Shown here: positions 14,495 through 48,123 of the stretch, one piece after another
Layout of the letters: every line of letters begins with the position of its first letter
Numbering within the stretch: the first letter of the stretch is position 1
Source: an uncultured Cryomorphaceae bacterium
GTDB lineage: Bacteria > Bacteroidota > Bacteroidia > Flavobacteriales > Schleiferiaceae
Direction: 5' to 3'
Length of the DNA: 64,000 bases
Assembly (NCBI GenBank): GCA_937120475.1
Contig: CAKZJV010000007.1
Location: 2,372,068-2,436,067 of the forward strand
Program-made: the position numbers and the translations under genes
Notes under the pieces: model-generated
Databases searched by the model: none
Seen by the model: the letters and a program-made list of their open reading frames with translations, nothing else
Told to the model about the DNA's origin: nothing

Positions 14495-14683
14495 CTATCG
14501 TAAACTTTTCTTCAGATCATACGCCTTTTTCCCACCGTATATAGCTCCGGCCCCGATGAGGACCTCCACCAGGCCGAAGGGAGTGGGCGCATCCGGTTCC
14601 TCCGGTTGAGCCAGCGCGCTGGTGGCGCAAAGCGTTAGAAATGCAAGCAGGAAAGTATATTTTTTAAGAAAGGACATAGTCAT
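14495..14683 (-). CDS. Cassette 1 small secreted peptide (PDAPTPFG family)
   Basis: A 62-residue protein. Residues 1-26 are a signal peptide ending ALAQ. The mature part is about 36 residues: PEEPDAPTPFG, a 14-residue hydrophobic stretch (LVEVLIGAGAIYGG) and a basic tail KKAYDLKKSLR. Pro-rich motif, short helix and basic tail is the three-part layout of C-terminal sorting signals of the PEP-CTERM/PID-CTERM kind, but here it makes up the whole mature protein. Four near copies lie at 24267, 29444, 37420 and 45535, each 14-16 nt after a large T9SS gene. It is closest to the copy at 45535. Function unknown. Confidence 0.88.
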   Translation of the reverse strand: MTMSFLKKYTFLLAFLTLCATSALAQPEEPDAPTPFGLVEVLIGAGAIYGGKKAYDLKKSLR

Positions 14684-14697
14684 GTATATTTAAGAGG

Positions 14698-17478
14698 TTA
14701 GCGAATTACTTTAACAGATTGGCGGAAGTTATCGGCCTCAACCTTCAGAATATAAAGACCATGGCCCTTAACCGGGAAAGATACTAAGCCATTCTGGCCT
14801 TCCAGCCGGTGCATCAACTGCCCCGCCAGGTTGTACACCTCCACCGAAGCATCCCTTAAAATACCCAGTTCCAGGTGCAACCCCTCATCGTTGGTATAGC
14901 CGTAAATCGGAGCCTCTTCCACGGGCTCATCCGTGCCGATGGTCGATTGCGCAAACTTCAGGATAAAGCGATCCGGACCAAAGCTGTTGTCCTGGATAAA
15001 GTGGTAGTCACCCGTAGTAAGATCGTGGTTGATATTCAATTTACGATCCTCCAGGATCACCTGTCCGAACGACTGCAAGCGGGACACATCCGCCTGTATG
15101 GTCATAGCATCCCCATCCTGGCTGTAATCCAGTTTTAGCGGGAAGCTCCAGGTAGCCGTGTGAGGTACTCTACAGATAGAATAAGCATCCTGCCCCAGGG
15201 CCACGTAGAAGTTAGGAGACGGGCTGCGGTTGAGCAGCTTGCGTGCATCCAGTTTAGGGTCAAAACCAGGAGTAGCCTGGTGATCGAAGCCAATAAAAAG
15301 TCCATCCGCAGAGGAAGAATCCAATACCGTCAGCCAAACCCCGTCCACCGCTGAAGTTTTCATCAAACCGGTAGAAGGGGCGGTAACCCGCTGATCCTGA
15401 TCGAAGGTAAAACTACCCGGGGAGCTGCTGGACGTCTGTATCCAGAGGCCCTGGAAGGGTGCCAGATACTGTGTACCCCCGTTGGTGCCTACCCCACTTA
15501 CGTAGGAAGCGTAAGAGCCACCCTTATTCACATAAAAAGCATTACTCATGCCGGCCGGCAGACTTTGCCCGCTCCAGTCATATTGCGAGGGGTAAGGGTT
15601 GGCCAGGTAATTCCAACCTTCGGTAGCACTTTGGGAAGTTCCCCCTACAAAACCTACCGAAGCGTTCTGACCATCGTTATAGCCGAGGCTAACCGAAATA
15701 TCCCCGCTAACTACTGTTCCGTCCAATTCGGTAACCCCGCTCCCGTTGATGAGAAAGGTACCGGAAGCGTTGGTGCCCGCATAAATAGCGTATCCCCGTC
15801 CGTTGGCCGCCACGTCCGTTAAAGCCGAAGGTGCCTCCCAGGCGGCATTAGCCGCATTCCACTGCCAGATGGTGCCTTGGCTACTGTTGGCCGCTACCAT
15901 GGTTTGCCCCTGATTGAACTCTTCCAGTGTGGCATTGGTAAAGGGCGAGCCTAGGTAGTAATAGCGTGCAGTAGAAACGTCCAACCATGCCTGGGCACTG
16001 ACATTGCCTAGCACCGTACCAGCCCCTATGAGCTGGCCATAGGAAGTGGCCGAAGAAGCGGTCAGGGTCAAGCTATCGTTGGTTTGGAGGGTGGTGCCGG
16101 AGTTTAGCTGAACCACACCTTCAAAATCGATCGAAACATTTGTGACGGATTGACTTTCACCGCTGAACACCAGTGTGCCAGCTCCGGTAATTTTATTTGA
16201 AGAGCTGCTGGACTGGCCAACAGCATTGGACACCGAATTAACCCCGGCATTATTTCCTGCCGCTGTGCCCTGGTTAAAGCGGTAATAGGAAACAAGGCCT
16301 GTTTCATTTCCGGATAATTCACTGTTCATATGGTTTTGAAGTTCACTTTGGCTCCTGGCCACGTTCCAGATGCGTACTTCATCTATTGAACCGTCAAAAT
16401 ACCTGGAAATACTACCCTCCGAGCGTGCGCCTATGTACAGTTCAGAAGCACCGCTATATACCGTACCAGCTATTGAATTGGTGCCGTCAGCGGTGCCATT
16501 CACAAAGGCACGCATGGTAGATCCATCGTAGGTAAGGGCAATATGATACCAGGTTCCGGCACTCAGGTTGGTGCTTCCGCTAAAAAATTGTTCAGCAGAT
16601 CCGTCCAGGCTTATGGAATACTCCATAACTCCTGAGGACAGCAGCAATAAAGAGAATTCCCTCTCGCCATTGGCAAACTTAGATACTGTTGAGGCGGTAT
16701 TGGAGAGTGCGTCAGCATTAATCCAGGCCTCTACCGTTAAACCGTTACTGAAATCAAATACGCCATTATTATTGCCTACTGAAATATAATCGTCCGATCC
16801 GTCAAAGTTAAGCCCGTTAGCCGGGGTTCCACTTCCATTGAAAGTGCTCCCGGCCCCTGAAACCCAGTTAGAACTGTTACCGCTTAGGGCAAAGCCATTG
16901 AGTGAGCCAGATATACCCGCTGAAACTTGTGCAGAAATATTTCCGCTAATATCTACCGTGTCACCATTGCCAATATTCAGGGTTACTCCATCAAGGATTA
17001 AATCTTTAGCGGTAAAACTTCCCGGGCTGATGGAACTATTGATCCTCGCACTCTTTAAGTTATTGGGAACGCCATTACTCCAACTGCTTCCATTCCAGGT
17101 GATAAGCTCAGTACTCACATATCCTTCCAGGCTTGGTGCGGGGGCAGAACCATTTACCACCTGCCAGCCTGTTTTGGGTGGTCTTAAACTATCAGAAGCC
17201 GCAGTGTACAATATCGCGCCAGTGCTATCAACAATATTCCAGCCACTGCCGTTTTTTCGGATTTGATAAGCGGAAACGTCATATCCTTCTCCATCACAGT
17301 TTATAATGGAGTAAAAGCGATTGGTTGAGGCGGTATTGTTATTCTGTACGTAGGCAATATTTGCTTTGGCTTCCCCCGAACCGGATACAATTACAATTCG
17401 ATTAAAGCCGGTTTGAGCAAAACAAACCAGGGAGCTTAAGCCCGCGATACATCCGAATACTACTTTTTTTAAATACAT
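14698..17478 (-). CDS. Cassette 1 large secreted protein: LamG head, shared tail, T9SS sorting domain
   Basis: A 926-residue protein with signal peptide (to about 22, ending CFAQ). A LamG/concanavalin-like domain spans about 225-400 (LNFDGSDDYISVG, GTWYHIALTYDGS, GSIDEVRIWNVARS). The shared tail runs from about 479 (SYGQLIGAGTVLGN) to the end. The final about 75 residues are a type A T9SS sorting domain (VEVYNLAGQL, GLYILKVEADNF, terminal VKVIR), so the protein should cross the outer membrane and be displayed or released. Residues about 479-745 resemble cassettes 2 and 3, but 750-926 resemble cassettes 4 and 5, indicating a mosaic. It follows the 195-residue gene by 21 nt. Confidence 0.9.
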   Translation of the reverse strand: MYLKKVVFGCIAGLSSLVCFAQTGFNRIVIVSGSGEAKANIAYVQNNNTASTNRFYSIINCDGEGYDVSAYQIRKNGSGWNIVDSTGAILYTAASDSLRPPKTGWQVVNGSAPAPSLEGYVSTELITWNGSSWSNGVPNNLKSARINSSISPGSFTAKDLILDGVTLNIGNGDTVDISGNISAQVSAGISGSLNGFALSGNSSNWVSGAGSTFNGSGTPANGLNFDGSDDYISVGNNNGVFDFSNGLTVEAWINADALSNTASTVSKFANGEREFSLLLLSSGVMEYSISLDGSAEQFFSGSTNLSAGTWYHIALTYDGSTMRAFVNGTADGTNSIAGTVYSGASELYIGARSEGSISRYFDGSIDEVRIWNVARSQSELQNHMNSELSGNETGLVSYYRFNQGTAAGNNAGVNSVSNAVGQSSSSSNKITGAGTLVFSGESQSVTNVSIDFEGVVQLNSGTTLQTNDSLTLTASSATSYGQLIGAGTVLGNVSAQAWLDVSTARYYYLGSPFTNATLEEFNQGQTMVAANSSQGTIWQWNAANAAWEAPSALTDVAANGRGYAIYAGTNASGTFLINGSGVTELDGTVVSGDISVSLGYNDGQNASVGFVGGTSQSATEGWNYLANPYPSQYDWSGQSLPAGMSNAFYVNKGGSYASYVSGVGTNGGTQYLAPFQGLWIQTSSSSPGSFTFDQDQRVTAPSTGLMKTSAVDGVWLTVLDSSSADGLFIGFDHQATPGFDPKLDARKLLNRSPSPNFYVALGQDAYSICRVPHTATWSFPLKLDYSQDGDAMTIQADVSRLQSFGQVILEDRKLNINHDLTTGDYHFIQDNSFGPDRFILKFAQSTIGTDEPVEEAPIYGYTNDEGLHLELGILRDASVEVYNLAGQLMHRLEGQNGLVSFPVKGHGLYILKVEADNFRQSVKVIR

Positions 17479-17499: not shown

Positions 17500-18087
17500 T
17501 TAGAAAATACAAAGAGGCGGTGTACGTCCATTGGAACACGATTCACAATTATCGGAATAAACTAAGGATGGATTGATACACGCAGAGCAATCAGGTGTGT
17601 AAAAATGACCGGGGCATTCACACGCTTCACTGTTGGCATGCACGTAAAATTTGTATTCAGGAGTGGCGGGATCATCAGAACTTATCGTAATTTCTGCCAT
17701 CGCCACCCCGTATTTCACTCTTGTAAATGAAATACCGATGCTGGTGGTGGCTCCGGGAGCTACGGTTGCTGCGGGATTTGTAGTGATCGAAAAGAAGTTA
17801 GCCGAACTGATATTGGTGATCTGGGCGTTGCTAATATTGAGGTTGGATGCACCATTGTTACGGATTAGAAAAAATACGGTTGAATCAGGAATATTGCTGA
17901 AAGTCCGCGTGCCCTGGTAAACGCCAAAATAGGTTTTAAGCTGGCTTGTTACGTTTATTTGGTTAGAGGGAATGTTATTTCCATTTCCTTCAATCATAAT
18001 ATTCTGTGCGTAAACCGGGGAGCTCACGAAAAACAGGAACATCAGTCCCTGAAAACACGGTTTCATAAAAGAATTGATGGCATTCAT
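17500..18087 (-). CDS. Secreted choice-of-anchor-D (ASPM/SPD-2/Hydin-like) protein with Cys-rich tail
   Basis: A 195-residue protein. The signal peptide ends VYAQ (about 28). One Ig-like ASH/choice-of-anchor-D domain follows (about 50-150): FLIRNNGASNLNISNAQI, FSITTNPAATVAPGATTSIGISF, MAEITISSDDPATPEYKF. The last 45 residues are rich in cysteine (eight Cys in an EGF-like pattern ending GRTPPLCIF). It lacks a T9SS domain. It is co-directional with cassette 1 and lies in its presumed transcript, so it may be exported with it. No binding partner can be named. Confidence 0.82.
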   Translation of the reverse strand: MNAINSFMKPCFQGLMFLFFVSSPVYAQNIMIEGNGNNIPSNQINVTSQLKTYFGVYQGTRTFSNIPDSTVFFLIRNNGASNLNISNAQITNISSANFFSITTNPAATVAPGATTSIGISFTRVKYGVAMAEITISSDDPATPEYKFYVHANSEACECPGHFYTPDCSACINPSLVYSDNCESCSNGRTPPLCIF

Positions 18088-20348: not shown

Positions 20349-20472
20349 GTACTCCTCCAATTACCAGTTGAAAAGACTAAACTATTACCTCGGTTAATTC
20401 AGTTACTGGGCAAGGAAAGTACAAGATTAAAGAAAATCAACTATTGCCAAAACAAGCTTGGCCCGATAAACT

Positions 20473-24270: not shown

Positions 24271-24470
24271 AGGTTTTGCCGGTAACGACCCGGGCCTTTC
24301 TTCCGGTGATACGCCTTCTTTCCCCCGTACAAAGCACCCGCTGCGATGAGGACCTCTATGAAACCAAAAGGCGTAGGCGCATCCGGTTCCTCGGGCTGTG
24401 CAGAAGCCCTAAAAGATATCAGGATTAGTAAGGAGAGCGTAAGCGCATATTTTTTAAAGCAGACCATCAT
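24267..24470 (-). CDS. Cassette 2 small secreted peptide (PDAPTPFG family)
   Basis: A 67-residue protein, the longest of the five copies. The signal peptide (1-25, ending ASAQ) is followed by PEEPDAPTPFG, the hydrophobic stretch FIEVLIAAGALYGG and a basic tail KKAYHRKKGPGRYRQNL. The last several residues are not found in the other copies and are read from DNA that also encodes the end of lysR on the other strand, so the cassette abuts lysR without any spacer. The gap to the large gene is 14 nt. Start could be either of two adjacent ATGs. Confidence 0.87.
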   Translation of the reverse strand: MMVCFKKYALTLSLLILISFRASAQPEEPDAPTPFGFIEVLIAAGALYGGKKAYHRKKGPGRYRQNL

Positions 24471-24484: not shown

Positions 24485-27346
24485 TTAGCGAATAATCTTT
24501 TGAGTACCTGAAACCGCAGCAGAACGCACTTTAACGATGTACAACTGCCGGGACCCGTTGGCAGGGATATGAATGGTACCCTCCTGTCCTTCCATTCTAA
24601 CAACCATTCTCCCACTCAGGTCATAAACCTCGATAGAAACATCAGTAAGTTGCCCCAACACTACCGCAATACCATCATCTGAAGCATACGCATACCACGG
24701 CTGAGCCAAAACCTCCTCCGTATCCACCCCTGGAGAAGAAAAATGCAACACAAAACGATCAGGGCCGTAGGCATCATTTTGCACGAAATTATAGTCTGAG
24801 CTTTTAACATCATGCCATACGTTCAGCATTTTATCCTCCAGGTAAACAGCCGAATAGCGGTTCAATTGACCAGCCTCCAAATGGAAAGAACAAGCCTGGC
24901 CGTCCACCCCATCCCTTAAGGAAAGCGGGAAGGAAGAAATACCATTGAGCCCTACCCGGCAGATGGAGTACAGCTCACCGTTAAGTTGAGTACTTAAGTT
25001 AGGAGTATCCCCATTGAGCAACTTCCGGGCGTCCAAAGCCGCATCAAAACCAGGGGTGGCCTGTGGGTCAAAACCAATAAAGATCTCATCCGATGTAAGA
25101 AAGTCGTTCAGTGTAAGCCATACCCCATCCACCGGAGCAGCCTTCATCAAAGCCGTGGAAGGAGCCGTTACCCTTTGATCCTGTTCGAAGGTAAAGTTAC
25201 CGGCCGTGGCGTTGGAAGTCTGCACCCAAAAACCCTGGAAAGGCGCCAAATACTGCGAACCCCCGTTGGTACCCACCCCGCTCACATAGGAAGCGTAAGA
25301 GCCACCCTTATTCACATAAAAAGCATTGCTCATACCGGCCGGCAGGCTTTGCCCGTTCCAATCGTACTGTGAAGGATACGGGTTAGCCAGGAAGTTCCAG
25401 CCTTCGGTGGCCGTTTGCGCAGTGCCCCCTACAAAACCCACGGCAGTGGATTGCCCGTTGTTGTAGCCCAGAGCCACCGTAACATCACCATTAGCTACCG
25501 TGCCATCCAGTTGAGAGGTACCTGCCCCGCTGCGTAAAAAGGTGCCATAGCTGTTGGTACCCGCATACATGGCGTAACCTTTTCCATTGGCGGCCACATC
25601 GGTAAGAGCAGTGGGCGGCTCCCAGGCAGCCGTAGCGGCATTCCACTGCCAAACGGTACCCTGGCTGCTGTTGGCCGCCACCATGGTTTGCCCTTCGTTA
25701 AACTCTTCTAAGGTGGCATCGGTAAAAGGCGAGCCTAAATAATGATAGCGGGCGGTACTGGCATCCAGCCAGGCCTGGGCACTTACATTACCCAGCACTG
25801 TACCGTCTCCTATAATCTGGCCATAGGAAGAGACAGAAGAAGCCGCTAAGGTGAGGCTATCGTTGGTTTGGAGGGTGGTACCGGAGCTGACCTGCACTAC
25901 GCCTTCGGTATTAATTTTTACGTCATCAAGGCTAAGGGTTTCACCGCTATTGTCAAATACTAAGGTTCCGCTACCGCTGATTACATTGGGGTCGTAGGGA
26001 ATGACTTTGTTGTCGGGCAGGGTCGCAATCCCGGTATTAGCACCCCCGGCCGTACCCTGGTTAAAGTTGTAATAGGCCACCAGTCCGGATTCATTACCAG
26101 TGAGTTCACTGTTCATAGAGGCCTGTATCTGGGCCTGAGTGCGTACCGTATCCCAAAAACGGAACTCATCTATAGTCGCGTTCAGGTGTTCCGAAAAGCC
26201 GGAAGAGACATCACGACAGCCGATGTAGGTGGTGGTAGGTGCGTTCCCGCTATAGGTCTCGGCTGCATTATCGGTAAAGTCAGATACTCCGTTCACATAA
26301 ATGGTTTGCGTATTACCATTTCTTACGTAAGCAATATGATACCAGGTATTGGCAGCAAGTACGGTATTGGCGGTTTTAAAATTACCGCTGGGCAGGTAAT
26401 GGTCAATAGCCACTTTGCCCCCGGATAAAAGCAGGTAATTGCGATAGTAGGAATTGGTCGGGTAAAACTCTCCGTATAAACCACCCGAAGCACTGGCCAC
26501 ATTGGGTTTTACCCAGGCCTCTATAGTATAGGTAGCATCATTACCGATCAGGTGCTCTCCGATTTGGATACGATCGTTTGAACCATCCAATGACAGGGCA
26601 TTGGCCGGGCTACCCGTACCGCTGAAGGTGCCCCCGGCTCCACTTACCCAGTTGGAGCTGTTGCCACTTAGAGCAAAATTGCTCAATGTACCGTTAGTAC
26701 TGGTGCTTTTAGCTACCCCCCTGATATCACCTCCTAAGGTTACCGTATCTCCCTGGCTTAAAGTAAGGTCGATACCACTGGGCAGGATAAGTCTGGACGC
26801 TGTAAAACTACCCGGAGAAGTATTTGAATTAAGAATTACATCAATCGAAGCAGTTGGAGCTGAACCCTTGGACCAGGAGGTACCATTCCAGCTATTAGCA
26901 GATAATTGAGCGCTGGGAAAGGGAGCACTGCCCAAGCCGCTGGAACTTGAAAAGGTAAGGCCCACTGGGTGCGTTTGAGTGCTTCCCGAGACATTGTAAT
27001 AAATCTTGCTATAACTACTACTGCCCAATGTATTGCTAACGCGCCACCAATACCGGACTGGATCCGAGGGAAAGTCCTTAAATGAAACTCTATATATAAA
27101 AATAGAGCCTTTCTGATAATAGTCGGCCGATTCTCCTCTATAATCTGTGTATTGACCCATATAGGTGTAAACACCATTCACCGCAGCGGTTCCGGCCCCG
27201 CTAAGTTCCAGGTCCAGCATCTGGGCATATAACGGAGCCATGCCAGAAAGGACTAAAGCCAGGGTAGCCAGGATTTTTTTACGGGTTCCCTTGTAAAAAT
27301 TGTAAAAAGATTTTTTCGGGAAGAAAAGCAAGATAAGTGGCTTCAT
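24485..27346 (-). CDS. Cassette 2 large secreted protein: LamG head, shared tail, T9SS sorting domain
   Basis: A 953-residue protein starting at ATG 27346; the TTG at 27373 is upstream of the usable start and overlaps the -7 box. The signal peptide ends LYAQ (about 42). LamG spans about 245-440 (LSLDGSNDRIQIGEHL, NTWYHIAYVRNGNTQTIYVNG, ATIDEFRFWDTVRTQ). The shared tail begins at SSYGQIIGDGTVLGN. It ends in a T9SS type A domain (VEVYDLSGRMV-like, LYIVKVRSAAV, terminal QKIIR). The last about 190 residues closely match cassette 3. It should be surface displayed, binding carbohydrate or protein through LamG; the ligand is unknown. Confidence 0.9.
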   Translation of the reverse strand: MKPLILLFFPKKSFYNFYKGTRKKILATLALVLSGMAPLYAQMLDLELSGAGTAAVNGVYTYMGQYTDYRGESADYYQKGSIFIYRVSFKDFPSDPVRYWWRVSNTLGSSSYSKIYYNVSGSTQTHPVGLTFSSSSGLGSAPFPSAQLSANSWNGTSWSKGSAPTASIDVILNSNTSPGSFTASRLILPSGIDLTLSQGDTVTLGGDIRGVAKSTSTNGTLSNFALSGNSSNWVSGAGGTFSGTGSPANALSLDGSNDRIQIGEHLIGNDATYTIEAWVKPNVASASGGLYGEFYPTNSYYRNYLLLSGGKVAIDHYLPSGNFKTANTVLAANTWYHIAYVRNGNTQTIYVNGVSDFTDNAAETYSGNAPTTTYIGCRDVSSGFSEHLNATIDEFRFWDTVRTQAQIQASMNSELTGNESGLVAYYNFNQGTAGGANTGIATLPDNKVIPYDPNVISGSGTLVFDNSGETLSLDDVKINTEGVVQVSSGTTLQTNDSLTLAASSVSSYGQIIGDGTVLGNVSAQAWLDASTARYHYLGSPFTDATLEEFNEGQTMVAANSSQGTVWQWNAATAAWEPPTALTDVAANGKGYAMYAGTNSYGTFLRSGAGTSQLDGTVANGDVTVALGYNNGQSTAVGFVGGTAQTATEGWNFLANPYPSQYDWNGQSLPAGMSNAFYVNKGGSYASYVSGVGTNGGSQYLAPFQGFWVQTSNATAGNFTFEQDQRVTAPSTALMKAAPVDGVWLTLNDFLTSDEIFIGFDPQATPGFDAALDARKLLNGDTPNLSTQLNGELYSICRVGLNGISSFPLSLRDGVDGQACSFHLEAGQLNRYSAVYLEDKMLNVWHDVKSSDYNFVQNDAYGPDRFVLHFSSPGVDTEEVLAQPWYAYASDDGIAVVLGQLTDVSIEVYDLSGRMVVRMEGQEGTIHIPANGSRQLYIVKVRSAAVSGTQKIIR

Positions 27347-27370
27347 AAGGAGAATCTTTAAATCACGTAT

Positions 27371-27427
27371 CAAAAATCCCTGCCCTATCCTATATTGACA
27401 AAAAAACGGTATCTACCTTTTCTCTAC
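27371..27427 (-). promoter_or_regulatory. Cassette 2 promoter with class A direct-repeat operator
   Basis: On the minus strand TTTG (27399-27402), 20 nt and GATTTTTG (27371-27378) form a near-consensus promoter. TCTAC occurs at 27412-27416 and again at 27423-27427 on the plus strand, an 11-bp period, starting 33 nt beyond the -7 box. This duplicates the cassette 1 arrangement in core sequence, period and distance. Confidence 0.65.
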
Positions 27428-29443: not shown

Positions 29444-29632
29444 TTATCCATGATTACTTTTTCGTTGATTATACGCCTTCTTTCCTCCGTAGAGGGCGCC
29501 CGCTGCGATGAGGACCTCTATGAAACCAAAAGGCGTAGGAGCATCCGGGTCTTCAGGTTGGCTGAAGGCCGGAATTGTTAGTATAATCAGGAAGGAAAGG
29601 GTAAGGGCGTATTTTATGAAGCTTTTCATCAT
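29444..29632 (-). CDS. Cassette 3 small secreted peptide (PDAPTPFG family)
   Basis: A 62-residue protein from ATG 29632 (a TTG and a second ATG adjoin it). The signal peptide ends AFSQ, then PEDPDAPTPFG, FIEVLIAAGALYGG and a basic tail KKAYNQRKSNHG. It shares FIEVLIAAGALYGG exactly with cassette 2, as expected from the close match of the two large-gene tails. It starts 14 nt after the large gene. Predicted to be exported by Sec and to sit in or on a membrane through the short hydrophobic stretch; role unknown. Confidence 0.88.
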   Translation of the reverse strand: MMKSFIKYALTLSFLIILTIPAFSQPEDPDAPTPFGFIEVLIAAGALYGGKKAYNQRKSNHG

Positions 29633-29646
29633 CAAGAGCTTGAAGA

Positions 29647-32600
29647 TTATCGGATAATTTTTTGGGTTTTGGAGAAGTAAGTAGTGCTTACTTTAACGAT
29701 GTACAACTGCCGGGCCCGGTTGGTAGGTATATGGACCTGGCCTTGCTGGTGTTCCAGTTTAAAAACCATCCTGCCACTCAGGTCATAAACCTCGACAGAA
29801 GCATCAGTAAGTTGCCCCAACTGCACCGCAATGCCACCTTCGGAGGCATAGGCGTACCACGACTGCACGGGAAGTTCTTCGGTTGCTATACCCGGAGAAG
29901 AAAAATGCAACACAAAACGGTTTGGGCCGTAGGCATTATTTTGCACGAAACTATAGTCTGAGCTTTTAACATCATGCCACACGTGCAGCATTTTATCCTC
30001 CAGGTGAACAGCCGAATAGTGGGTCAATTGACCAGACTCCAAATGGAAAGAACAAGCCTGGCCATCCACCCCATCCCTTAAGGAAAGCGGGAAGGAAGAA
30101 ATACCATTGAGCCCTACCCGGCAAATGGAGTACAGCTCACCGTTAAGTTGAGTGCTCAGATTAGCCGCACGGGCATTCAGGAGCTTATGCGCATCCAAAT
30201 CCGCATCAAAGCCGTTGGTGCCATTGGGGTCAAAACCAATAAAAATCTCATCCGATGTAAGAGAGTCGTTCAGTGTAAGCCATACCCCATCCACCGGAGC
30301 AGCCTTCATCAAACTGGCAGAAGGTGCAGTAACTCTTTGATCTTGCTCAAAAGTGAAGTTGCCGGGCGTGGCGTTGGTGGTTTGTACCCAGAAGCCCTGA
30401 AAGGGTGCCAAATACTGCGTACCCCCGTTGGTACCCACCCCACTTACATACGAAGCAAAAGAGCCCCCCTGGTTGATGTAGAAAGCATTGTTAGTACCAG
30501 AGGGTAAAGACTGTCCGTCCCAATCGTATTGCGAAGGATAGGGGTTGGCCAGCAGGTTCCAGCCTTCAGTAGCACTTTGTGAAGTACCCCCCACAAAACC
30601 GATGGTAGCAGACTGGCCGTTGTTATAGCCCAGGGCTACATCAATATCGCCATTAGCCACGGTCCCATCCAGTTCGGATGGCCCGGAGGCACCCATGAGG
30701 AAGGTAGCGTGTGCATTAGTACCGGCATAAATGGCATAGGCCTTTCCGTTGGTGGCTACATCGGTAAGGGCTGAAGGAGCTTCCCAGGCAGCATTGGCAG
30801 CGTTCCATAGCCACACGGAACCCTGGCTGCTATTGGCGGCTACCATGGTTTGGCCTTCGTTGAATTCCTCAATGGTGGCATTGGTAAAGGGGGCACCCAG
30901 GTAGTGGTAGCGGGCCGTACTTACATCCAGCCAGGCTTGAGAGGTAACGTTACCCAGTACGGCACCACCGCCAATGATTTGCCCGTAAGAAGAAACGGAA
31001 GAAGCGGTAAGGGTTAGGGAATCACTGGTTTGGAGGGTGGTTCCGCTTTCCACATGGAGCACCCCTTCAAACTCATAAGCCTCGAGGTATATACCCAGGG
31101 TATCGCCATTGCTGTCAAAGCTCACGGTACCGATGCCGGAAAAGCCGTTGCCGAAATTATAGACGTTTCGACTTACGTTGATGGTGTTGCCGGTGCCGGT
31201 GTTCAGGCTCATGGCTTCATCAATATAAATGTCTTTAGCCGTAAAAGAGGCGGGTGCGGCATTGTCTCTTATCCAAACGTTTACGGTGTCATTAGGAGTG
31301 CCATTATCCCAGGCTCCGGCTGTCCAACTGGAACCTTTTACCGGGAAGTGGCTTTCATAGATCCGTAAATAAGGGTTGCCATCATTACGGAGCGGATGGA
31401 TGGCCCAGGTATTGGTAAAATCAAAGCCACTGAACTTTGATTCCTGCTTCATTTCGGCCGTGCTAAGGCCGGTGCCTGAAGTACCCGTGGCAAAACTATC
31501 CGTATTCCAGTAGTTGCTGGCTGCCGGCTGGGCAAAGGGAAATTGCGTTAAACCAACGGCACCACCTACATTTGAACTACCGCTTGTAGCACTGGTGGTA
31601 TAGTTATTACTGATGGTGCCGGTGATATAAGTACCGATAAGCCCACCTGCAGGTCCACCTCCGTTTACCGTACCGCTAAAGTGGTTGTTGGTTACGATGT
31701 ACCCATTGCCTGAAAACTGACCCATAAGCCCTCCGGTTCGGCCGGTACCGGTTAGGGTACCACTGGCATAACATAGGTTAATATGGATGCTGCCGGCACC
31801 ACCTACCAGGCCACCTACCAGGTCCACCCCGCTTACATCACCGGTAGCATAACATCTACTAATGGTTACATTGGTATTAGCAGCCCCGATGAGGCCACCT
31901 ACAGAGTTGCCCCCGTTTACATTAGCGGATGAATAACAATCTACCATTGTGGTGCCTGTGACACCACCGGAAAGGCCTCCACCATACAAGGGCGTAGTTA
32001 CAGTACCACTACTATAGCAATCTGAAACAGTATCGGATGGATAGCTAAGGCTTCCTACTAAACCTCCGGCATAACCTGTAGTGCCTACTACTGCAACAAC
32101 GCTACCGGTGGCATAGCAGTGTTTTATACTACAGCCCCGGCAGATCCCGAGCAGTGGCCCTGCGTAGCGCCAGCCAGTAATAGTGTCATTTACAAAACCT
32201 AAGCTATCCACCGAGCCGGTAAGGTCCGAGAAAAGGCCGGTCATTTCCATGGTGGGACGGTTAATGTACAGGTTGGATATCACGTATCCCTGCCCGCGGA
32301 AGGAACCGCTGAAATCAATAGTGGAATCTGAAAAGAATTCCCCGTTACCAATCGGGTCGAAGCCCAGTCCATTATTCCAACTTGAAGTGACGGAGGCATC
32401 AATGTTATTCATCAGGATAAAATGACTTTCCAGAAAAACCTCATCATCAATAGCCTGCAGTTCATTAATATTGGTAATCTGGAAAGGGTCACCCTCGGTG
32501 CCCTCACCACCGGCAAAGGGTATTTCCACCAGGTTTACAAAAGCCAGGTCGCTGGCTTCATATCCGGCCTCATCAGTACCGGTAAGCAATACGGGAGTAT

Positions 32601-35256
32601 CGTTATCCGTACGGTCGGTGGCGGGATCCATATTGGCCATGGCTCCGTTATGGCCATTGGGGCCTTCATCCGTAACAATGGTGTCAGAAGCTTCATTAAA
32701 GGGATAATAGGCCACGAGATTGGCTTCGTTTCCGGCCAGCGGCAGGTACATGTTGGTTTGTATTTCGTTCTGGGTACGTAGGTCATTCCAGTAACGCACT
32801 TCGTCAATCTCACCACCAAAGGCCTCAAAACCGGCAGAAGGCACTGAACCACCAATACTTAAATCTAAACCGGTAGCGGCTGAATTGATGCCGGCATAGA
32901 AACTTCCCACATTTTGCCCGTTAATAAGAACATCCACTTTGTTGGGTTGTATGGCCAGGGCGATGTGGTACCACTCCCCACCAATAAAAGGATAGGGAAT
33001 GGTATTATAAGAACCACCGTTCCACAAACCGATGAGGTCGCCCCCTTCATCTATGTGGAAGCTGTAACGTACCGATCCCCCGAAGCGCATTCCTATAATA
33101 CCTGAGTTATTATTGGTGTTGGGTTTAACCCACAGTTCAATGGTGCCGGTGGTAAACTCGAAATCCGCATGGTTCGGAATGACTACAAAATCATTGGCGG
33201 CATCAAAATGCAGGGTGCGTGCCAGGGGTAAAACACTATCACCAAAGGTTACTGTACTTCTATTCAGGGAGAGTGTGATGTTGCAGTTGTCGGTGGAGTT
33301 ATTGTCCAGGTCACCGGTGGTAACGGCTGCCGTATTATTGGCATAGGCAAACTTGTTGATGTTTTGAGCGATAATGGTAGGAATGGTATTATCGGCAACG
33401 GTTACATAAGCCGTATCCGTGGCGGTGTTGCTATTGTTATCCGTAACGGTGAGTACCACCTGGGTGCCGTTATTGATCCAGTCGGTAGCAGCATCCATGT
33501 TGGTGAGGGTACCGTCATTATCAGTGGGGGAATGGTCATAAACCGTATCGCCCTTACCTTTTAAAACCGGGAAGTAAGCTACCAGTCCGTTTTCATTGCC
33601 GGTAAGCAAACGGTTCCTATTGGTTCTGGTTTCCACCGCGTTTCGCCAGTAGTTCCAGATGCGTACATCGCTGATCTGGCCGGGAAAGGCTTCCGCTCCG
33701 TTGGTGCTGGAAGCACCAATGGTTAAATCGCGCCCGGTGGTGCCGGTGGACGCCCCGGCAGTAAGGGAATTCACGTACTGGCCATTCACATACACATCGG
33801 TACGGGCACTGGTATAGTTCAGGGCGAGGTGATACCAGGTATTGGCATTAAAACCCTGACTGTAAGTGATAGCACTGTAGGTACCTCCGTTCCAAATGGC
33901 AATTTGATTGGCCTGCTGGTTCATGAAGTAGCTGTACCGTACTCCCGTTCCATCCAGGCGCATGGCTATCAGGCATCGGTTGCCGGAAAAGGAATTGGGT
34001 TTCACCCACATTTCAAGAGTACCCAGGTTGCTTTCATAGGCGGCATTATTGGGTACCCTGATGAAGTCATCGGTGCCATCCAAATCAAGTACGGTTACAA
34101 TAGATGGAATAGTATCCGCATCGGAGCAAGTAAATGCCGTTTGACTGAGGGAAAGGCTGGCTATCCCGCTTACGGCTTTAGAACCATCATCCAGGTTGTT
34201 AGTACTGAGGGTGGCGTTACCCGAGCCATCCAGGTATATTACAGTATTTTGGGCATGAGCTTCTATGGGAGCATTATCCCGTAAGTAGGGGTAACCATTA
34301 TTAATGTTAGGGTTGATGGCCCAAATGGTGTTAAAATCAAATCCAGTATAGTTAGCTGAGCTTTTCATTTGGGCGGTGGTGAGCCCAGTACCTTCATCGC
34401 TGGTAGCTGAGCTGTCCGTATTCCAGTAGGAATCATATACATCACCAGCATCAACATAACTGATGAGCCCGCCCGGATCAGAACTTGGGGCGCCCCCGCT
34501 AACAGTACCGGCAGCGTAACAGTATTGTATTTCATAATCATACATTTCGCCTACCAGGCCACCGGCATCGCCATTAGTACTATGCACCGGGCCGAGCGCG
34601 TATGAATTGTATAGTTGAGCGTCTTCCATGTAACCCACCATACCACCCTTATGATTATTTGATCCGCTTACGCTAACGTCTGTAAAGCAGCGTGATACGG
34701 TTTCTTCATATTGATAGCCGATCAGGCCTCCAACGTACCTATCAGTACCAGTAACTGATCCTGTTACATAGCAATCCGTTATTGTATAGTTGTAAGCGTA
34801 ACCAGCCAGTCCTCCTACATATTTGTCACCGGATATAGAAACGTTTACGAGACCCAGGTTCTCAATGATGGAGATCCCTGGAATACGGGCATAACTAAAC
34901 AGCCCTACATAGCTGGTAGCAGGACGATTTATGAACAAGTTACTGATCTTATAACCGTTGCCATCAAAGCTTCCGCTAAACCGATTTGTAAAATCTCCTA
35001 TAGGATCAAAACCGGCTCCACTGTTCCAGCCAGAAGTGGCCGAGGCATCAATATCATTCGTTAAGATGAAATAATCGGCCAGGTAGGTCACATTATCCAT
35101 AGCCTGAAGGTCAGCCAGGGTAGTTATCTGCCAGGGGTTACCTATGGTTCCGGCTCCTCCTGAAAACTGGGCATGGGAAAAGAAAGGGTTAAGGACCCAT
35201 AACGTGGTGAAAGCAAATAAGACCAAATTGCGTGTGAGCGGGAAGTTTAAAATCAT
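29647..35256 (-). CDS. Cassette 3 giant secreted protein: GLUG repeats, two LamG domains, T9SS sorting domain
   Basis: An 1869-residue protein, the largest of the family. The signal peptide ends SHAQ (about 30). GLUG-type repeats fill about 80-330 (VGGLAGYAYNYTITDCYVTG and similar Gly-rich units), a LamG domain lies at about 395-570, another at about 690-880, then a second GLUG block at about 930-1290 (GGLVGSLS, GGLIGAANTNVTISRCYATG). The shared tail begins near SSYGQIIGGGAVLGN and ends in a type A T9SS domain (VEVYDLSGRM, terminal QKIIR). GLUG units are known from adhesin-like and IgA-peptidase-like secreted proteins. It is likely an elongated surface adhesin. The two GLUG-LamG blocks suggest an internal head duplication. 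Confidence 0.9.
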   Translation of the reverse strand: MILNFPLTRNLVLFAFTTLWVLNPFFSHAQFSGGAGTIGNPWQITTLADLQAMDNVTYLADYFILTNDIDASATSGWNSGAGFDPIGDFTNRFSGSFDGNGYKISNLFINRPATSYVGLFSYARIPGISIIENLGLVNVSISGDKYVGGLAGYAYNYTITDCYVTGSVTGTDRYVGGLIGYQYEETVSRCFTDVSVSGSNNHKGGMVGYMEDAQLYNSYALGPVHSTNGDAGGLVGEMYDYEIQYCYAAGTVSGGAPSSDPGGLISYVDAGDVYDSYWNTDSSATSDEGTGLTTAQMKSSANYTGFDFNTIWAINPNINNGYPYLRDNAPIEAHAQNTVIYLDGSGNATLSTNNLDDGSKAVSGIASLSLSQTAFTCSDADTIPSIVTVLDLDGTDDFIRVPNNAAYESNLGTLEMWVKPNSFSGNRCLIAMRLDGTGVRYSYFMNQQANQIAIWNGGTYSAITYSQGFNANTWYHLALNYTSARTDVYVNGQYVNSLTAGASTGTTGRDLTIGASSTNGAEAFPGQISDVRIWNYWRNAVETRTNRNRLLTGNENGLVAYFPVLKGKGDTVYDHSPTDNDGTLTNMDAATDWINNGTQVVLTVTDNNSNTATDTAYVTVADNTIPTIIAQNINKFAYANNTAAVTTGDLDNNSTDNCNITLSLNRSTVTFGDSVLPLARTLHFDAANDFVVIPNHADFEFTTGTIELWVKPNTNNNSGIIGMRFGGSVRYSFHIDEGGDLIGLWNGGSYNTIPYPFIGGEWYHIALAIQPNKVDVLINGQNVGSFYAGINSAATGLDLSIGGSVPSAGFEAFGGEIDEVRYWNDLRTQNEIQTNMYLPLAGNEANLVAYYPFNEASDTIVTDEGPNGHNGAMANMDPATDRTDNDTPVLLTGTDEAGYEASDLAFVNLVEIPFAGGEGTEGDPFQITNINELQAIDDEVFLESHFILMNNIDASVTSSWNNGLGFDPIGNGEFFSDSTIDFSGSFRGQGYVISNLYINRPTMEMTGLFSDLTGSVDSLGFVNDTITGWRYAGPLLGICRGCSIKHCYATGSVVAVVGTTGYAGGLVGSLSYPSDTVSDCYSSGTVTTPLYGGGLSGGVTGTTMVDCYSSANVNGGNSVGGLIGAANTNVTISRCYATGDVSGVDLVGGLVGGAGSIHINLCYASGTLTGTGRTGGLMGQFSGNGYIVTNNHFSGTVNGGGPAGGLIGTYITGTISNNYTTSATSGSSNVGGAVGLTQFPFAQPAASNYWNTDSFATGTSGTGLSTAEMKQESKFSGFDFTNTWAIHPLRNDGNPYLRIYESHFPVKGSSWTAGAWDNGTPNDTVNVWIRDNAAPASFTAKDIYIDEAMSLNTGTGNTINVSRNVYNFGNGFSGIGTVSFDSNGDTLGIYLEAYEFEGVLHVESGTTLQTSDSLTLTASSVSSYGQIIGGGAVLGNVTSQAWLDVSTARYHYLGAPFTNATIEEFNEGQTMVAANSSQGSVWLWNAANAAWEAPSALTDVATNGKAYAIYAGTNAHATFLMGASGPSELDGTVANGDIDVALGYNNGQSATIGFVGGTSQSATEGWNLLANPYPSQYDWDGQSLPSGTNNAFYINQGGSFASYVSGVGTNGGTQYLAPFQGFWVQTTNATPGNFTFEQDQRVTAPSASLMKAAPVDGVWLTLNDSLTSDEIFIGFDPNGTNGFDADLDAHKLLNARAANLSTQLNGELYSICRVGLNGISSFPLSLRDGVDGQACSFHLESGQLTHYSAVHLEDKMLHVWHDVKSSDYSFVQNNAYGPNRFVLHFSSPGIATEELPVQSWYAYASEGGIAVQLGQLTDASVEVYDLSGRMVFKLEHQQGQVHIPTNRARQLYIVKVSTTYFSKTQKIIR

Positions 35257-35284
35257 AGGGTTAGGACATAAACATTAACGTGCT

Positions 35285-35342: not shown

Positions 35343-35374
35343 AAAGTGTATGGGATTGATTACAAAGGAGATAG

Positions 35375-37618: not shown

Positions 37619-40000
37619 TTAGCGAATAACTTTCAGGGATTTTGTGAAGTTTCCTGCTTCAACTTTTACAATGTAAAGGCCGCTTTGCTCCACGGCAAAA
37701 GATGCCCTCCCGTTAAGTTCATTTCCTCTTTCAATCAACTGACCGGCCAGGTTGTATATTTCCACCGAAGCATTATGGAGAATGCCTAAATCCACGTGTA
37801 GGCCTTCATCATTGACGTAACCGTAAACCACGGCTTGTTCTTGAGGTTCCTCTACACCAATGGTGGGCTGACTGAAATGAACGATAAAGCGATTGGGCCC
37901 GTAGGTGTTGTCCTGGATGAAATTGTAATGACCCAGGCTGAGGTCATGCATAGTACCGAGTTTACGGTCTTCAAGGTAAACCTTGCCGAACGACTGTAGC
38001 CTGGATTGATCCAGCGTAATGGTCATGGCATCACCGTCCTGTTTATAATCCAGGCTTAGCGGGAACGAGCGGGGTCCTGTAAAAGGAACCCTGCAAATGG
38101 AATAGGCATCGGGCCCGAAGCTTACGTAAAAGTTGGGGGCATTACCTCTATTCAGCAGCTTACGCGCATCCCAATCCTTATCAAAACCAATGGTTGAAGA
38201 GCTTTGGAAACCAATATAAACATCATCGTACACGTCACCTGCCAAACCTTCAATATGCAGGGCGGCAAAATCTACCGTATAATGGGCGGTTTTGGCCAGG
38301 GTAGCCGATTGGCCGGTAACGCGGTTATCCCGGTCAAAAGTAAGGTTACCCGGGGTGTTGGCGGTAAGTTGCACAAAGAAGGCCTGCATAGGGGCGATGT
38401 AGCGTGAAGCCGTACCAGCGCCCTTGGCGTAGGATGTATAATTGGTGCCGTTAAAGCGGTAAATGGCCGAGCTCATATCGGTAGGTATGGTTTGCCCGTC
38501 CCAGTCATAAATGGCGGCATAGGGGTTGGCCACCAGGTTCCAGCCTTCGGTGGCGGAAACTCCACTTCCGCCCACAAAACTCATGCTGGAGGCCTGTCCG
38601 TCATTATAGCTGAGGGGGGTGCTTACCGTAGCATCATTATTGATAGTTCCGGTTATGGTAACCGTACCGGTACGGTCGCCATCGTCAATAAGAAAGGGTC
38701 CGAAGCTTCCGTTCATACCTGCGTACATGGCGTAGCCCCTGCCACGGGTGGCGGTGGCAGACAGTCCGGTACCGGCTGCAGTGCCCGCTGGGTCCCATTC
38801 AGCATTAGCGGCATCCCATTCCCAGGCCGTTCCCTGACTGGAATTGGAAGAAACCATGGTGGAAGCAGGTTCGTTAAAATCCGATAAGGTGGCATCGGTA
38901 AAAGGTGAGCCCAGGTAAAAGTAGCGGCCAGTGGAAGCATCGAGAAAAGCCTGCATACTTATCGCGTCATTTACGGTGCCGGTGCCGGTAAGCTGACCGG
39001 AGGAAGAGGGAGAAGGAGCGGTTAAAGTTATCAAGCCATTGGTTTTCAGCGCAGTGGTGCCTGATACGGTAATCACTCCGCGGAAAGAATGATTATTGCC
39101 CGAAAGGGTAATGGTATTGCCATCATTATCAAATACCACGCTGCCCGAAGCATCAGCAGCAATAAAGCCAAAGCCATTGTTGGTTACTGAAGTACCCGAA
39201 ACGGTTACGGTTTGATTGGTACCAAAAACCAGCGCGCGGCTGGAGTTGATAGTAAGATCTTTACAGGTAAAGCTGCCCGGGGCCACGTTGCCATCAATAA
39301 CCGCATCAGTATTGGCATCCGGTGCACCGTTACTCCAACTGGAGCCGTTCCAGGTGGTAGGGCCGGCTGCTGTTCCCTGTATACTTACATTATCCACCAT
39401 CATATATTCGGATGAGGAATTGTTGCGTAGGGTTATCTTAAGAATGAAAGAACTGCCGGAAAGGCCTGATTCAGAAACATTGATGGTATTGTTGGCAGCC
39501 GTGCTGAAGTCTGCATCGTCATAAATGTAATTGCCACCGCTAAGAATGGTATCACCGGTATAAGTGAACTGGTAAGGTTGCCGCACTACCCGGGTATAGG
39601 TAGCTCCATTGTTGGTGGAGTATTCTACGTTTACATAATCGGAGTTTTCAATGTCTCCTTCTTCCCTCAGGTCAAATGAAAAGGTAACGTTGGTATAGCC
39701 ATTAATATCAACGGTGTCGGAATACCAAATAGATTCCCCTCCGAGGTCGCGGGCTTCCAGTTCGCCATTATCCACTTTGAAATAATCATTGGCATCGTTG
39801 TAGGTTCCTCCTGAAACATCGAGGGTCCAGCTTACCCCGTTTAAATCGGTAGTACTGGGTCCGGTAAAGCCCTTTCCTTCCTGATTGGTAAAGGTCTCTG
39901 AATAGAGGGTGGTTTGGCCCGCAAGAGGTGCTACAGCCAGCGAGAGGAAAAAAAGAATAACACTTTTCCGCAAATTGGAAATCGGATTGCTCGTGAACAT
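37619..40000 (-). CDS. Cassette 4 large secreted protein with shared tail and T9SS sorting domain
   Basis: A 793-residue protein. The signal peptide ends LAGQ (about 29). The head (about 30-215: ETFTNQEGKGFTGPSTTDLNG, ISFDLREEGDIENSDYVNVEYSTNNG-like) resembles beta-sandwich jellyroll/MAM-like modules of Bacteroidota T9SS cargo, without a LamG signature. The shared tail begins at SPSSSGQLTGTGTVN. It has YGPFLIDDGDRTGTVTITG and PYAAIYDWDGQTIP variants in common with cassette 5. It ends in a type A T9SS domain (VEIYNLAGQLIERG, GLYIVKVEAGNF, terminal LKVIR). Expected at the cell surface. Confidence 0.89.
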   Translation of the reverse strand: MFTSNPISNLRKSVILFFLSLAVAPLAGQTTLYSETFTNQEGKGFTGPSTTDLNGVSWTLDVSGGTYNDANDYFKVDNGELEARDLGGESIWYSDTVDINGYTNVTFSFDLREEGDIENSDYVNVEYSTNNGATYTRVVRQPYQFTYTGDTILSGGNYIYDDADFSTAANNTINVSESGLSGSSFILKITLRNNSSSEYMMVDNVSIQGTAAGPTTWNGSSWSNGAPDANTDAVIDGNVAPGSFTCKDLTINSSRALVFGTNQTVTVSGTSVTNNGFGFIAADASGSVVFDNDGNTITLSGNNHSFRGVITVSGTTALKTNGLITLTAPSPSSSGQLTGTGTVNDAISMQAFLDASTGRYFYLGSPFTDATLSDFNEPASTMVSSNSSQGTAWEWDAANAEWDPAGTAAGTGLSATATRGRGYAMYAGMNGSFGPFLIDDGDRTGTVTITGTINNDATVSTPLSYNDGQASSMSFVGGSGVSATEGWNLVANPYAAIYDWDGQTIPTDMSSAIYRFNGTNYTSYAKGAGTASRYIAPMQAFFVQLTANTPGNLTFDRDNRVTGQSATLAKTAHYTVDFAALHIEGLAGDVYDDVYIGFQSSSTIGFDKDWDARKLLNRGNAPNFYVSFGPDAYSICRVPFTGPRSFPLSLDYKQDGDAMTITLDQSRLQSFGKVYLEDRKLGTMHDLSLGHYNFIQDNTYGPNRFIVHFSQPTIGVEEPQEQAVVYGYVNDEGLHVDLGILHNASVEIYNLAGQLIERGNELNGRASFAVEQSGLYIVKVEAGNFTKSLKVIR

Positions 40001-45534: not shown

Positions 45535-45726
45535 TTATTCCTGGTTCTTTTTTCGTTTGTCATACGCCTTTTTCCCACCGTATATAGCCCCGGCCCCGAT
45601 GAGGACCTCCACCAGACCGAAGGGAGTGGGCGCATCTGGATCTTCTGGTTGTGCCAGGGCACTGGTTGAACAAAGGGCTACAAAGGCGAGAAGAAAAGTA
45701 TATTTTTTAAGAATGGACATAGTCAT
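45535..45726 (-). CDS. Cassette 5 small secreted peptide (PDAPTPFG family)
   Basis: A 63-residue protein. The signal peptide ends ALAQ; then PEDPDAPTPFG, LVEVLIGAGAIYGG and KKAYDKRKKNQE. It is almost identical to the cassette 1 copy, including MTMS and LKKYTFLLAF at the N-terminus, although the two lie about 31 kb apart. It starts 15 nt after the large gene. A 7-bp palindrome (ATAACCC-GT-GGGTTAT, 45523-45538) overlaps its stop codon, and the terminator follows. Confidence 0.88.
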   Translation of the reverse strand: MTMSILKKYTFLLAFVALCSTSALAQPEDPDAPTPFGLVEVLIGAGAIYGGKKAYDKRKKNQE

Positions 45727-45741: not shown

Positions 45742-48123
45742 TTAGCGAATTACTTTAACAGATTGACGGAAGTTATCGGCTTCAACTTTCAGAATATAAA
45801 GACCATTGTCCTTAACCGGGAAGGATACTAAGCCGTTCTGGCCTTCCTTGCGGTTCAACAACTGGCCGGCAAGGTTGTAAACCTCAACCGTGGCATTATT
45901 CAAAATGCCAAGCTCCATATGCAAGCCCTGGTCGTTGGCATAACCATAAACCATAGCTTTTTGAGTGGGTTCCTCAATGCTTATAGAGGGTTGGCTAAAA
46001 TGCAGGATAAAACGGTTCGGTCCGAAATTATTATCCTGAACAAAACTGTAAGTACCATTGGCAAAATCGTGCATGATGTTCAGTTTGCGGTCTTCAAGCA
46101 TTACCTGGTTGAAAGACTGCAACTGGCTAAGGTCAGCATCAATGGTCATATTATCTCCATCCTGATCGTAATCCAGTTTCATGGGGAAAGACCATGGGCC
46201 GGTTTGAGGCACCCGGCAAACCGAATAGGCATCGGAACCCAGGTTAATGTACAGGTTAGGAGCGTCCCCTCTATTCAGTAGCTTACGAGCATCCCAGTCC
46301 TTATCAAAAGCCATGGTAGCGTTTGCATCAAAGCCCGCATACACGTCATCGTAAACCGTACCACTCAAACCCTCAATATGTAGATATACACCATCAATGG
46401 TATAAGAAGGTTTTTTAGTAAGGGTAGCCGATTGTGACTCCGTCCGGTTAGAGCGGTTGAAAGTAAGGTTACCCGGGTTATTGGCCGTAAGTTGTACAAA
46501 AAAGCCCTGGAAAGGAGCAATATAGCGTGAACCGGTACCGGCACCCTTTACGTAAGAAGTGTAATTGGTCCCATTAAAACGGTAGATAGCCGAACTCATA
46601 TCGGTAGGTATGGTTTGGCCATCCCAGTCGTAAATAGCGGCATAGGGATTGGCTACCAGGTTCCAGCCTTCGGTGGCGCTCACCCCGGTTCCTCCCACAA
46701 AACTCACGGAGGAAGACTGTCCGTTATTGTAAGACAGGGGAGAGGTGAGGTTATCATCATTGGTAATAGCTCCGGTAATGGTAATGGTTCCGGTGTTGTC
46801 ACCGTCATCAATCAGGAATGGGCCATAGGCTCCGTTCATGCCGTAGTACATGGCAAATCCACGGCCACGGGTAGCAGTAGCGGCCAAACCTGTACCGGCA
46901 GCGGTACCGGCCGGGTCCCACTCGGCATTGGCGGCATCCCATTCCCAGGCAGTTCCCTGGCTGGTGTTGGCAGAAACCATGATTGCCCCGGGTTCATTAA
47001 AATCATTTAAAGTAGCGTTAGTCAGGGGAGAACCGATGTAGATGTAACGACCGCCAGCGGAAGCATCCAGAAAGGCTTGCAGGGAAACATTACCGGTAAC
47101 GGTACCGGTTCCTACTAATTGACCGGACGAGCTGGTACTGGGGGCGGATAAGGTGAGTAAACCTCCGGAGCTTAAAGTAGTAGTACCAGATACTTCTACA
47201 ACTCCACGAAAAGTATGCGCATTACCAGTCAGTGAAATGGTATTGCCATCATTGTCAAAAACCAGGCGGCCGGTGGCATCGGCAGCAATGGCTCCGAAAC
47301 CGCTGTTGGTTACGGTAGTACCGGATACTGTAACTACCTGGCCGGATCCAAATATCAGAGCTCTGCTGGCGTTAATAGTTAAATCTTTACAGGTGAAGCT
47401 ACCGGGAGCTGTGTTGCCATCAATAATCGCATCGGTATTGGCATCGGGAACTCCGTTATTCCAGGTTGTGCCATTCCAGGTGGTAGCACCCGACTGGATG
47501 GTAAATGAAGTGGTGCTTAAAGCCGGATCTGCCGTAGCACTTCCGGTGGTATAGTTAGAAGGATCATCAATTAGCGCATATAGTGCTGCTGCCGTTCCGG
47601 TACGGGAACCGCTGTAATTGGCATTATCGCCTCCGGTGAGTACCTGATCATTGGTGGTGAGACCGGTTGGGGTACCCACATCGCCAGCGTCTTCACCTAT
47701 TTGATGCAAAAAGGTGGTAGCGGTGCCGGTACCATTACCATTATCGGTAAAACCCTGGAACATGGTAACACCATCACCACCGTTCGCCAGAACAAAATTG
47801 GGGAAATTGGTTACCTCAGCAAAGTCACCCGATGGGTTAACCACATCAGAACAGATAATTACTGTACCGGCCGAAACCGCACTGGACGCGGTATATAATA
47901 TGGTACCCTCACCACTGGCAATGGTGGTTCCACTGGGTTCTTCATCGGTAAAATAAATTTGAGTACCGGCCTGTAGGTCCACAAAGGTTACAAAAGTAAA
48001 TTGTTCATCATCGGCTTGGATGCCAATAAGAGCTATATCACCGACACTAAGGGTGGTTTGAGCGTGAATAGTGTAACTGAGAAAGAAGCTACTCAGCAAT
48101 AGCAGAATAGATTTTAATTTCAT
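45742..48123 (-). CDS. Cassette 5 large secreted protein with shared tail and T9SS sorting domain
   Basis: A 793-residue protein. The signal peptide ends IHAQ (about 22). The head (about 23-200: LSVGDIALIGIQADDEQFTFVTF, AGTQIYFTDEEPSGTTIASGEG) resembles the lamin-tail-like/'surface-anchored' repeat heads of bacterial exoproteins rather than LamG. The shared tail begins at STSSSGQLVGTGTVTGN. Its last about 180 residues closely match cassette 1 (VEVYNLAGQL, GQNGLVSFPVK, LYILKVEADNFRQSVKVIR), while the middle matches cassette 4. Unlike the other cassettes it has no TPR regulator upstream; the next gene up is a tail-collar protein. Confidence 0.89.
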   Translation of the reverse strand: MKLKSILLLLSSFFLSYTIHAQTTLSVGDIALIGIQADDEQFTFVTFVDLQAGTQIYFTDEEPSGTTIASGEGTILYTASSAVSAGTVIICSDVVNPSGDFAEVTNFPNFVLANGGDGVTMFQGFTDNGNGTGTATTFLHQIGEDAGDVGTPTGLTTNDQVLTGGDNANYSGSRTGTAAALYALIDDPSNYTTGSATADPALSTTSFTIQSGATTWNGTTWNNGVPDANTDAIIDGNTAPGSFTCKDLTINASRALIFGSGQVVTVSGTTVTNSGFGAIAADATGRLVFDNDGNTISLTGNAHTFRGVVEVSGTTTLSSGGLLTLSAPSTSSSGQLVGTGTVTGNVSLQAFLDASAGGRYIYIGSPLTNATLNDFNEPGAIMVSANTSQGTAWEWDAANAEWDPAGTAAGTGLAATATRGRGFAMYYGMNGAYGPFLIDDGDNTGTITITGAITNDDNLTSPLSYNNGQSSSVSFVGGTGVSATEGWNLVANPYAAIYDWDGQTIPTDMSSAIYRFNGTNYTSYVKGAGTGSRYIAPFQGFFVQLTANNPGNLTFNRSNRTESQSATLTKKPSYTIDGVYLHIEGLSGTVYDDVYAGFDANATMAFDKDWDARKLLNRGDAPNLYINLGSDAYSVCRVPQTGPWSFPMKLDYDQDGDNMTIDADLSQLQSFNQVMLEDRKLNIMHDFANGTYSFVQDNNFGPNRFILHFSQPSISIEEPTQKAMVYGYANDQGLHMELGILNNATVEVYNLAGQLLNRKEGQNGLVSFPVKDNGLYILKVEADNFRQSVKVIR

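Follow-up and report, generated by a model that had tools for sequence, protein, structure and literature searches.

The window, by which we mean the whole stretch of 64,000 nucleotides, carries five paralogous genes (c1–c5) on its minus strand (Table 1). Their products end in a common tail, about 500 residues long, and carry different heads: Pfam recognizes a LamG domain in c1 and c2 and GLUG plus two LamG domains in c3, while the heads of c4 and c5 contain no Pfam domain above the cut-off. The N-terminus of c1, judged by eye, is basic and continues into a hydrophobic stretch. The array probably encodes adhesin-like surface proteins exported by the T9SS. A search of the same genome with c1 recovers the five copies and one distant match on another contig. 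We distinguish two types of tail, the c2/c3 lineage and the c4/c5 lineage; these names are distinct from T9SS Type A and Type B.

Downstream of each of the five lies a small gene whose product has 60–67 residues and a DAPTPFG motif. The five small proteins score 12.6 to 18.0 bits against the PID-CTERM model NF046080, all under its 26-bit cut-off, and inspection of their translations by eye reveals no two forms paralleling the tail lineages. A similar small gene is also found 3' of tail genes in a congener taken to be the Owenweeksia sp. EAC74 MAG (hereafter G001), and of one tail gene in the genome G022. Genes resembling TPR/HTH regulators (R1–R4) lie upstream of c1–c4; R1 and R2 share only 30% identity, and R3 and R4 have counterparts in G001 at 63% and 71%. 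Between R1 and c1 lies a gene for a 195-residue protein with a HYDIN/VesB Ig-like domain, for which tblastn against seven relative loci returned no match.

Table 1. Genes and sequence tracts of the c1–c5 array, in window positions.
Feature	Position	Strand	Description
c1	14698..17478	-	mosaic surface-protein gene, 926 aa
c2	24485..27373	-	c2/c3 tail lineage, own LamG
c3	29647..35256	-	c2/c3 tail lineage; GLUG and two LamG
c4	37619..40000	-	c4/c5 tail lineage
c5	45742..48123	-	c4/c5 tail lineage; partner of the younger tract with c1
c1 LamG domain	16339..16803	-	residues 226-380; Pfam Laminin_G_3, E 2.3e-32; closest by tree to the LamG of E_c2p (G001)
c1 upstream tail part	15250..16185	-	residues 432-743, c2/c3 lineage
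c1 switch region	15206..15257	-	residues 741-758, DARKLLN at 744-750; support interval of the best break
c1 downstream tail part	14698..15228	-	residues 751-926 and stop, c4/c5 lineage; T9SS Type A sorting domain at 865-925
Younger c1/c5 tract, c1 side	14515..14840	-	c5 side about 45560-45884; edges approximate
s1, small gene 3' of c1	14495..14683	-	62 aa
s5, small gene 3' of c5	45535..45726	-	
Small genes after c2, c3, c4	24267-24470, 29444-29635, 37420-37602		
c2/c3 tract, c2 side	24740..25000	-	c3 side about 29905-30162; edges approximate; 95.0% of 259 nt
R1, R2, R3, R4	18573-20360, 27485-29272, 35480-37309, 40154-41995		TPR/HTH regulator-like genes
HYDIN/VesB Ig-like protein gene	17500-18087		195 aa, between R1 and c1

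An earlier note on this DNA had read c1 as a mosaic of two tail lineages, and the motifs that it named are present in the translation of 14698-17478(-). Comparison of the five copies bears out this reading. Upstream of the DARKLLN motif (residues 432–750) the c1 protein is 77% identical to c2 and 73% to c3 (73% and 68% in nucleotides), against 49% to c4 and 50% to c5 (55% and 54%). Downstream (residues 751–926) the order is reversed: identity is 40% to c2 and 39% to c3 (48% in nucleotides for both), and 66% to c4 and 71% to c5 (64% and 72%). We painted c1 at 216 columns that separate the lineages; 24 columns where c1 matches neither lineage were dropped, leaving 192 informative ones. The optimal break falls between residues 743 and 758, with c2/c3-type sites at 103:17 to its left and 13:59 to its right. 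Its LLR of 45.9 was reached in 0 of 20000 permutations, the largest permuted value being 11.7. The diagnostic sites place the switch within residues 741–758 (window positions 15257-15206), near DARKLLN as had been suggested. The proposed spans on either side hold in their affinity and not in every detail: residues 479–745 are c2/c3-like, with similarity to c2 starting already at about residue 110, and residues 750–926 belong to the c4/c5 lineage, with the motif GLVSFPVK forming part of a second, c5-specific tract.

Nine sequences served as leave-one-out controls for the painting. Seven of them show no break, their value being reached by 252–862 of 1000 permutations. E_c3p, the G001 counterpart of c3, has a weak break (14/1000) at which the c2/c3-like fraction passes from 1.00 to 0.86, both sides being c2/c3-like. 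The relative H_C71 displays a strong break (0/1000) at residue 806, where this fraction falls from 0.84 to 0.45; its C-terminal part is divergent from both lineages (40–42% to c2/c3, 34–37% to c4/c5). Neither c4 nor c5 has a break of its own.

The switch extends to third codon positions. Matches between c1 and c2 drop from 163/312 to 33/113 across the seam (Fisher 2.6e-5), and those between c1 and c5 rise from 99/310 to 52/115 (p 0.012); between c1 and c4 third positions hardly change (39% to 42%) and are saturated. At DARKLLN itself the nucleotide identity between the two lineages averages 75% (62–90), compared with 54% before and 45% after the motif. The ends in general evolve faster than the upstream parts: c2 and c5 are 56% identical in nucleotides upstream and 46% downstream.

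Trees of the five copies alone should be compatible between the two parts of the tail as unrooted trees, and relatives from other genomes were therefore required. We added nine from three other genomes (five genes from G001, three from G022 and one from G002); the sample includes three genomes from the genus and a single one from this species. In the tree of the upstream part c1 groups with c2, c3, E_c2p, E_c3p and H_C71 (split support 100/100), and in that of the downstream part with c4, c5, E_c4p and E_c5p (93.9/91 for protein, 96.6/88 for nucleotides). The AU test rejects a placement of c1 with c4/c5 upstream (p 2.3e-7 for protein, 9.3e-10 for nucleotides) and with c2/c3 downstream (p 6.8e-4 and 2.3e-3). 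A uniform tree for the whole tail, which would have spoken against a mosaic, is thus not what we find. In a broader set of 41 near-full-length tails (820 pairs), a subset of all matches drawn from the loci examined with duplicates removed, pairs involving c1 make up the four largest positive residuals and three of the four most negative ones. The change of nearest relative is also strongest in c1 (score 60), followed by c5 (34), L043 (33) and L039 (32).

The exchanged end carries the putative sorting domain. Scanned with TIGR04183 (cut-off 23 bits), c1, c4 and c5 score 25.8, 30.9 and 32.1, and c2 falls just under the cut-off with 21.5; Pfam Por_Secre_tail stays below its cut-off of 27 in c4 (18.9) and c5 (18.5). 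By sequence, the tails of both lineages resemble T9SS Type A, so the swap would keep the export route. The C-terminal part of the tail aligns to residues 892–1105 of Flavobacterium johnsoniae RemZ (E 3.6e-16) and 1215–1434 of RemA (E 2.8e-13), and the whole tail to RemZ 783–1105 (E 5.2e-22), RemA being absent among the matches listed there. A structure model of the whole c1 tail was set aside (mean pLDDT 41.8). In a model of residues 700–926 (mean pLDDT 60.3) only the sorting domain is usable, with block means of 84–93; it matches the CTDs of NucA, RemZ and RemA with TMt of 0.71–0.74 and Foldseek E values of 0.003–0.035 (ranks 4, 35 and 46). The top three Foldseek matches, to PorZ and a polysaccharide lyase, were set aside for an rmsd above 20.

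A second, younger layer of exchange overlies the first. From about 14840 to 14515, c1 and c5 are 75–98% identical in windows of 40 columns, and identity returns to the background level beyond. This tract runs through the sorting domain and the stop codon, crosses the non-coding spacer of 14–15 nt and takes in most of the small gene. One substitution and one indel distinguish the spacers of c1 and c5. The small gene beside c1 had been said to match that of c5, and it does: s1 is 82% identical to s5 in nucleotides, against 65% to s2 and 56% to s4. Within the sorting domain c1 and c5 share 84% of nucleotides and 42/61 third positions, compared with 65% and 52/115 just upstream (p 0.004). The pair c4 and c5 shows no such step (65% before and 66% within the domain; third positions 50/115 and 26/61, p 1.0), and the sorting domain is thus not unusually conserved in itself. 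Since the 84% between c1 and c5 exceeds the 65% between c5 and E_c5p in this region, the tract postdates the split from G001.

The array contains further tracts of this kind. A run of 259 nt between c2 and c3 is 95% identical, and over residues 751–865 these two genes share 86% of nucleotides, against 67% between c3 and E_c3p. A 118-nt run at 88% (0/300) is shared by the small genes that accompany E_c4p and E_c3p in G001. A run test gives 0/400 for both c1/c5 and c2/c3, but it does so in 6 of the 10 pairs of own copies (c1/c2, c1/c3, c1/c5, c2/c3, c3/c4 and c4/c5). Given this lack of specificity, the main evidence for the tracts comes from comparing the copies with G001 and from third positions. 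Gene conversion between paralogues makes copies of a single genome more alike over limited tracts, and in the c1/c5 sorting domain and in c2/c3 residues 751–865 paralogues are indeed more alike than orthologues.

The main swap is older. Over residues 751–865, c1 is only 61–65% identical in nucleotides to the four copies of the c4/c5 lineage, with 36–45% of third positions shared. In residues 751–860 c1 is not nested with either c4 or c5: the nodes around it have a support of 21–65, and the nucleotide tree joins c5 and E_c5p (78) without c1. The resolution of this segment was insufficient for naming the donor or dating the swap.

The array of G001 lies between the same kinds of neighbors, with a downstream gene that looks like ileS (all named by eye). 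It holds counterparts of c3, c4 and c5 and a fourth gene, E_c2p; a scan of the genome contigs found one locus (L070), which is the E_c2p gene. The LamG domain of E_c2p pairs with that of c1 in the tree (support 99), and its head matches c1 at 59% over 296 aa, compared with 43% over 316 aa between c1 and c2. The upstream tail of E_c2p is of the c2/c3 type, 75% identical to c1 and slightly closer to c2 at 79%, and the upstream trees do not settle whether c1 or c2 is its sister. Its end is of the c2/c3 type as well (59% to both c2 and c3, 38% to c1). This combination of a c1-type LamG with a c2/c3-type end points to c1 as the probable line in which the tail end was exchanged for another. The two genes occupy different places in their arrays. 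The R3-c3 and R4-c4 units (29647-41995) also stand in the opposite order to those of G001 (G001:C13:488010-500342; L057, L058), so moves and losses occurred too. The heads of c4 and c5 are only 34–35% identical to their G001 counterparts over the aligned stretches; the corresponding values are 76% and 68% for the upstream tails and 67% and 66% for the downstream parts.

We consider it highly probable that c1 is a recombinant gene within an array of five paralogous T9SS surface proteins, with a history in four steps. The body of the gene, of c2/c3 lineage, is joined at DARKLLN to the C-terminal 176 residues of the c4/c5 lineage. This end would have been brought in by homologous recombination in the c1 lineage, either as a conversion-like replacement or by unequal crossover within the array; over the short DARKLLN stretch the DNA of the two lineages is more similar than on its flanks. 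After G001 had split off, copying between c5 and c1 then affected about 325 bp, which take in the sorting domain, the spacer and the greater part of the small gene. The hybrid would still be exported by the same route, and the exchange would thus be tolerated. Homologous, conversion-like recombination between paralogues is the likely mechanism. Recombination or gene conversion between cassettes, as the earlier note proposed, is well supported by the change of nearest relative, the AU tests, the third positions of c1 and c2 and the spacer-spanning c1/c5 tract. Its further suggestion of a way to shuffle surface proteins is supported only in part: the piece that moved belongs to the conserved C-terminal region, sorting domain included, and not to the variable head, and the main swap is old. 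Exchange in the service of surface variation is at most a possibility here. We regard as doubtful a wider scheme in which tail and small downstream gene form an exchangeable display module and DARKLLN a recurrent homology seam, with heads kept diverse and the export end homogenized throughout an array made up of regulator, surface protein and small protein.

The order of events could also be turned around: the mosaic c1 would predate the split from G001, and E_c2p would be either a separate paralogue or a gene converted back to a c2/c3-type end. This overlaps with the account above and differs from it in the second step only. It would agree with the similar distances that separate c1 from the four copies of the c4/c5 lineage and those four from one another, and with the different array places of E_c2p and c1. 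The pairing of the c1 and E_c2p LamG domains argues against it, as does the fact that in c2, c3, E_c2p and E_c3p the upstream part and the end are both of the c2/c3 type, and we hold it to be unlikely. Transfer of the c4/c5-type end from another cell or species, rather than from a copy in the same array, seems to us distinctly unlikely. The genome offers no close donor for residues 751–865 (65% nucleotide identity at best), nor does c1 nest among the own copies there; yet c1 is slightly closer to the own copies (64–65%) than to the G001 ones (61%), and the younger c1/c5 tract is an instance of copying inside this genome.

Uneven rates, with a fast c2/c3 end or selected convergence of the c1 and c4/c5 ends, might imitate a mosaic with no recombination at all. 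The compatibility of the five-copy trees and the generally faster evolution of the ends leave room for this, but the AU tests with outside relatives, the narrowness of the switch and the change in c1–c2 third positions alongside the protein make it very improbable. Artificial joining of two genes during assembly or binning is hardly credible, even in a genome of 9 contigs: the contig extends over at least 2.4 Mb, and the two parts of c1 are identical to none of the copies seen here (73% to c2, 64–72% to c4/c5 in nucleotides), which rules out a misjoin of these.

The c1 mosaic is a well-documented case of a known process, and the array shows no difference in kind from gene conversion between paralogues in general. 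Exchange among surface-gene copies or alleles is known also for the T9SS: according to the available parts of PMC5266723, surface proteins of Porphyromonas gingivalis such as Kgp are diversified by allelic exchange. Both cases concern T9SS surface proteins made mosaic by recombination; that of Kgp, as presented in these parts, involves several alleles between strains of one species, whereas here it is paralogues in one genome that exchanged a tail end. What is new here is the G001 relative that combines a c1-type LamG with a c2/c3-type end, the younger c1/c5 tract and the 259-nt c2/c3 tract. Judged by their titles, the papers listed in literature searches include none on this gene cluster, 'PID-CTERM' gave none, and the accessible sections of PMC5808330 and PMC5771137 hold nothing on conversion of T9SS genes.

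In F. johnsoniae, RemZ and RemA are T9SS Type A surface proteins, and RemA is described in the available text of PMC12618676 as an adhesin with a lectin domain and a role in gliding. The likeness of RemZ and RemA to the c1–c5 proteins lies in the C-terminal tail region upstream of the sorting domain and in the modelled fold of the CTD; the heads differ, and the relation found by these searches is limited to the tail. The same portion of that source reports that all Type A CTDs are recognized by PorV and that swapping CTDs between Types A and B alters the destination of the protein; heads tolerate a foreign CTD, which carries secretion and targeting information (PMC12618676). Those swaps, as reported there, are artificial and set Type A against Type B, whereas c1 is natural and both of its possible ends look like Type A. 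The c1 gene shows exchange among paralogous T9SS surface proteins in several layers, while a relative in a congener keeps the other end, and it suggests a natural counterpart to the laboratory swaps in which heads and export tails can be recombined. It also cautions that the orthology of such genes is to be judged part by part. Another possible tail mosaic appears in the wider comparison among L039 (G037), L043 (G060) and L042 (G009), where the identity of L039 to L043 is 31% upstream of the seam and 50% beyond it.
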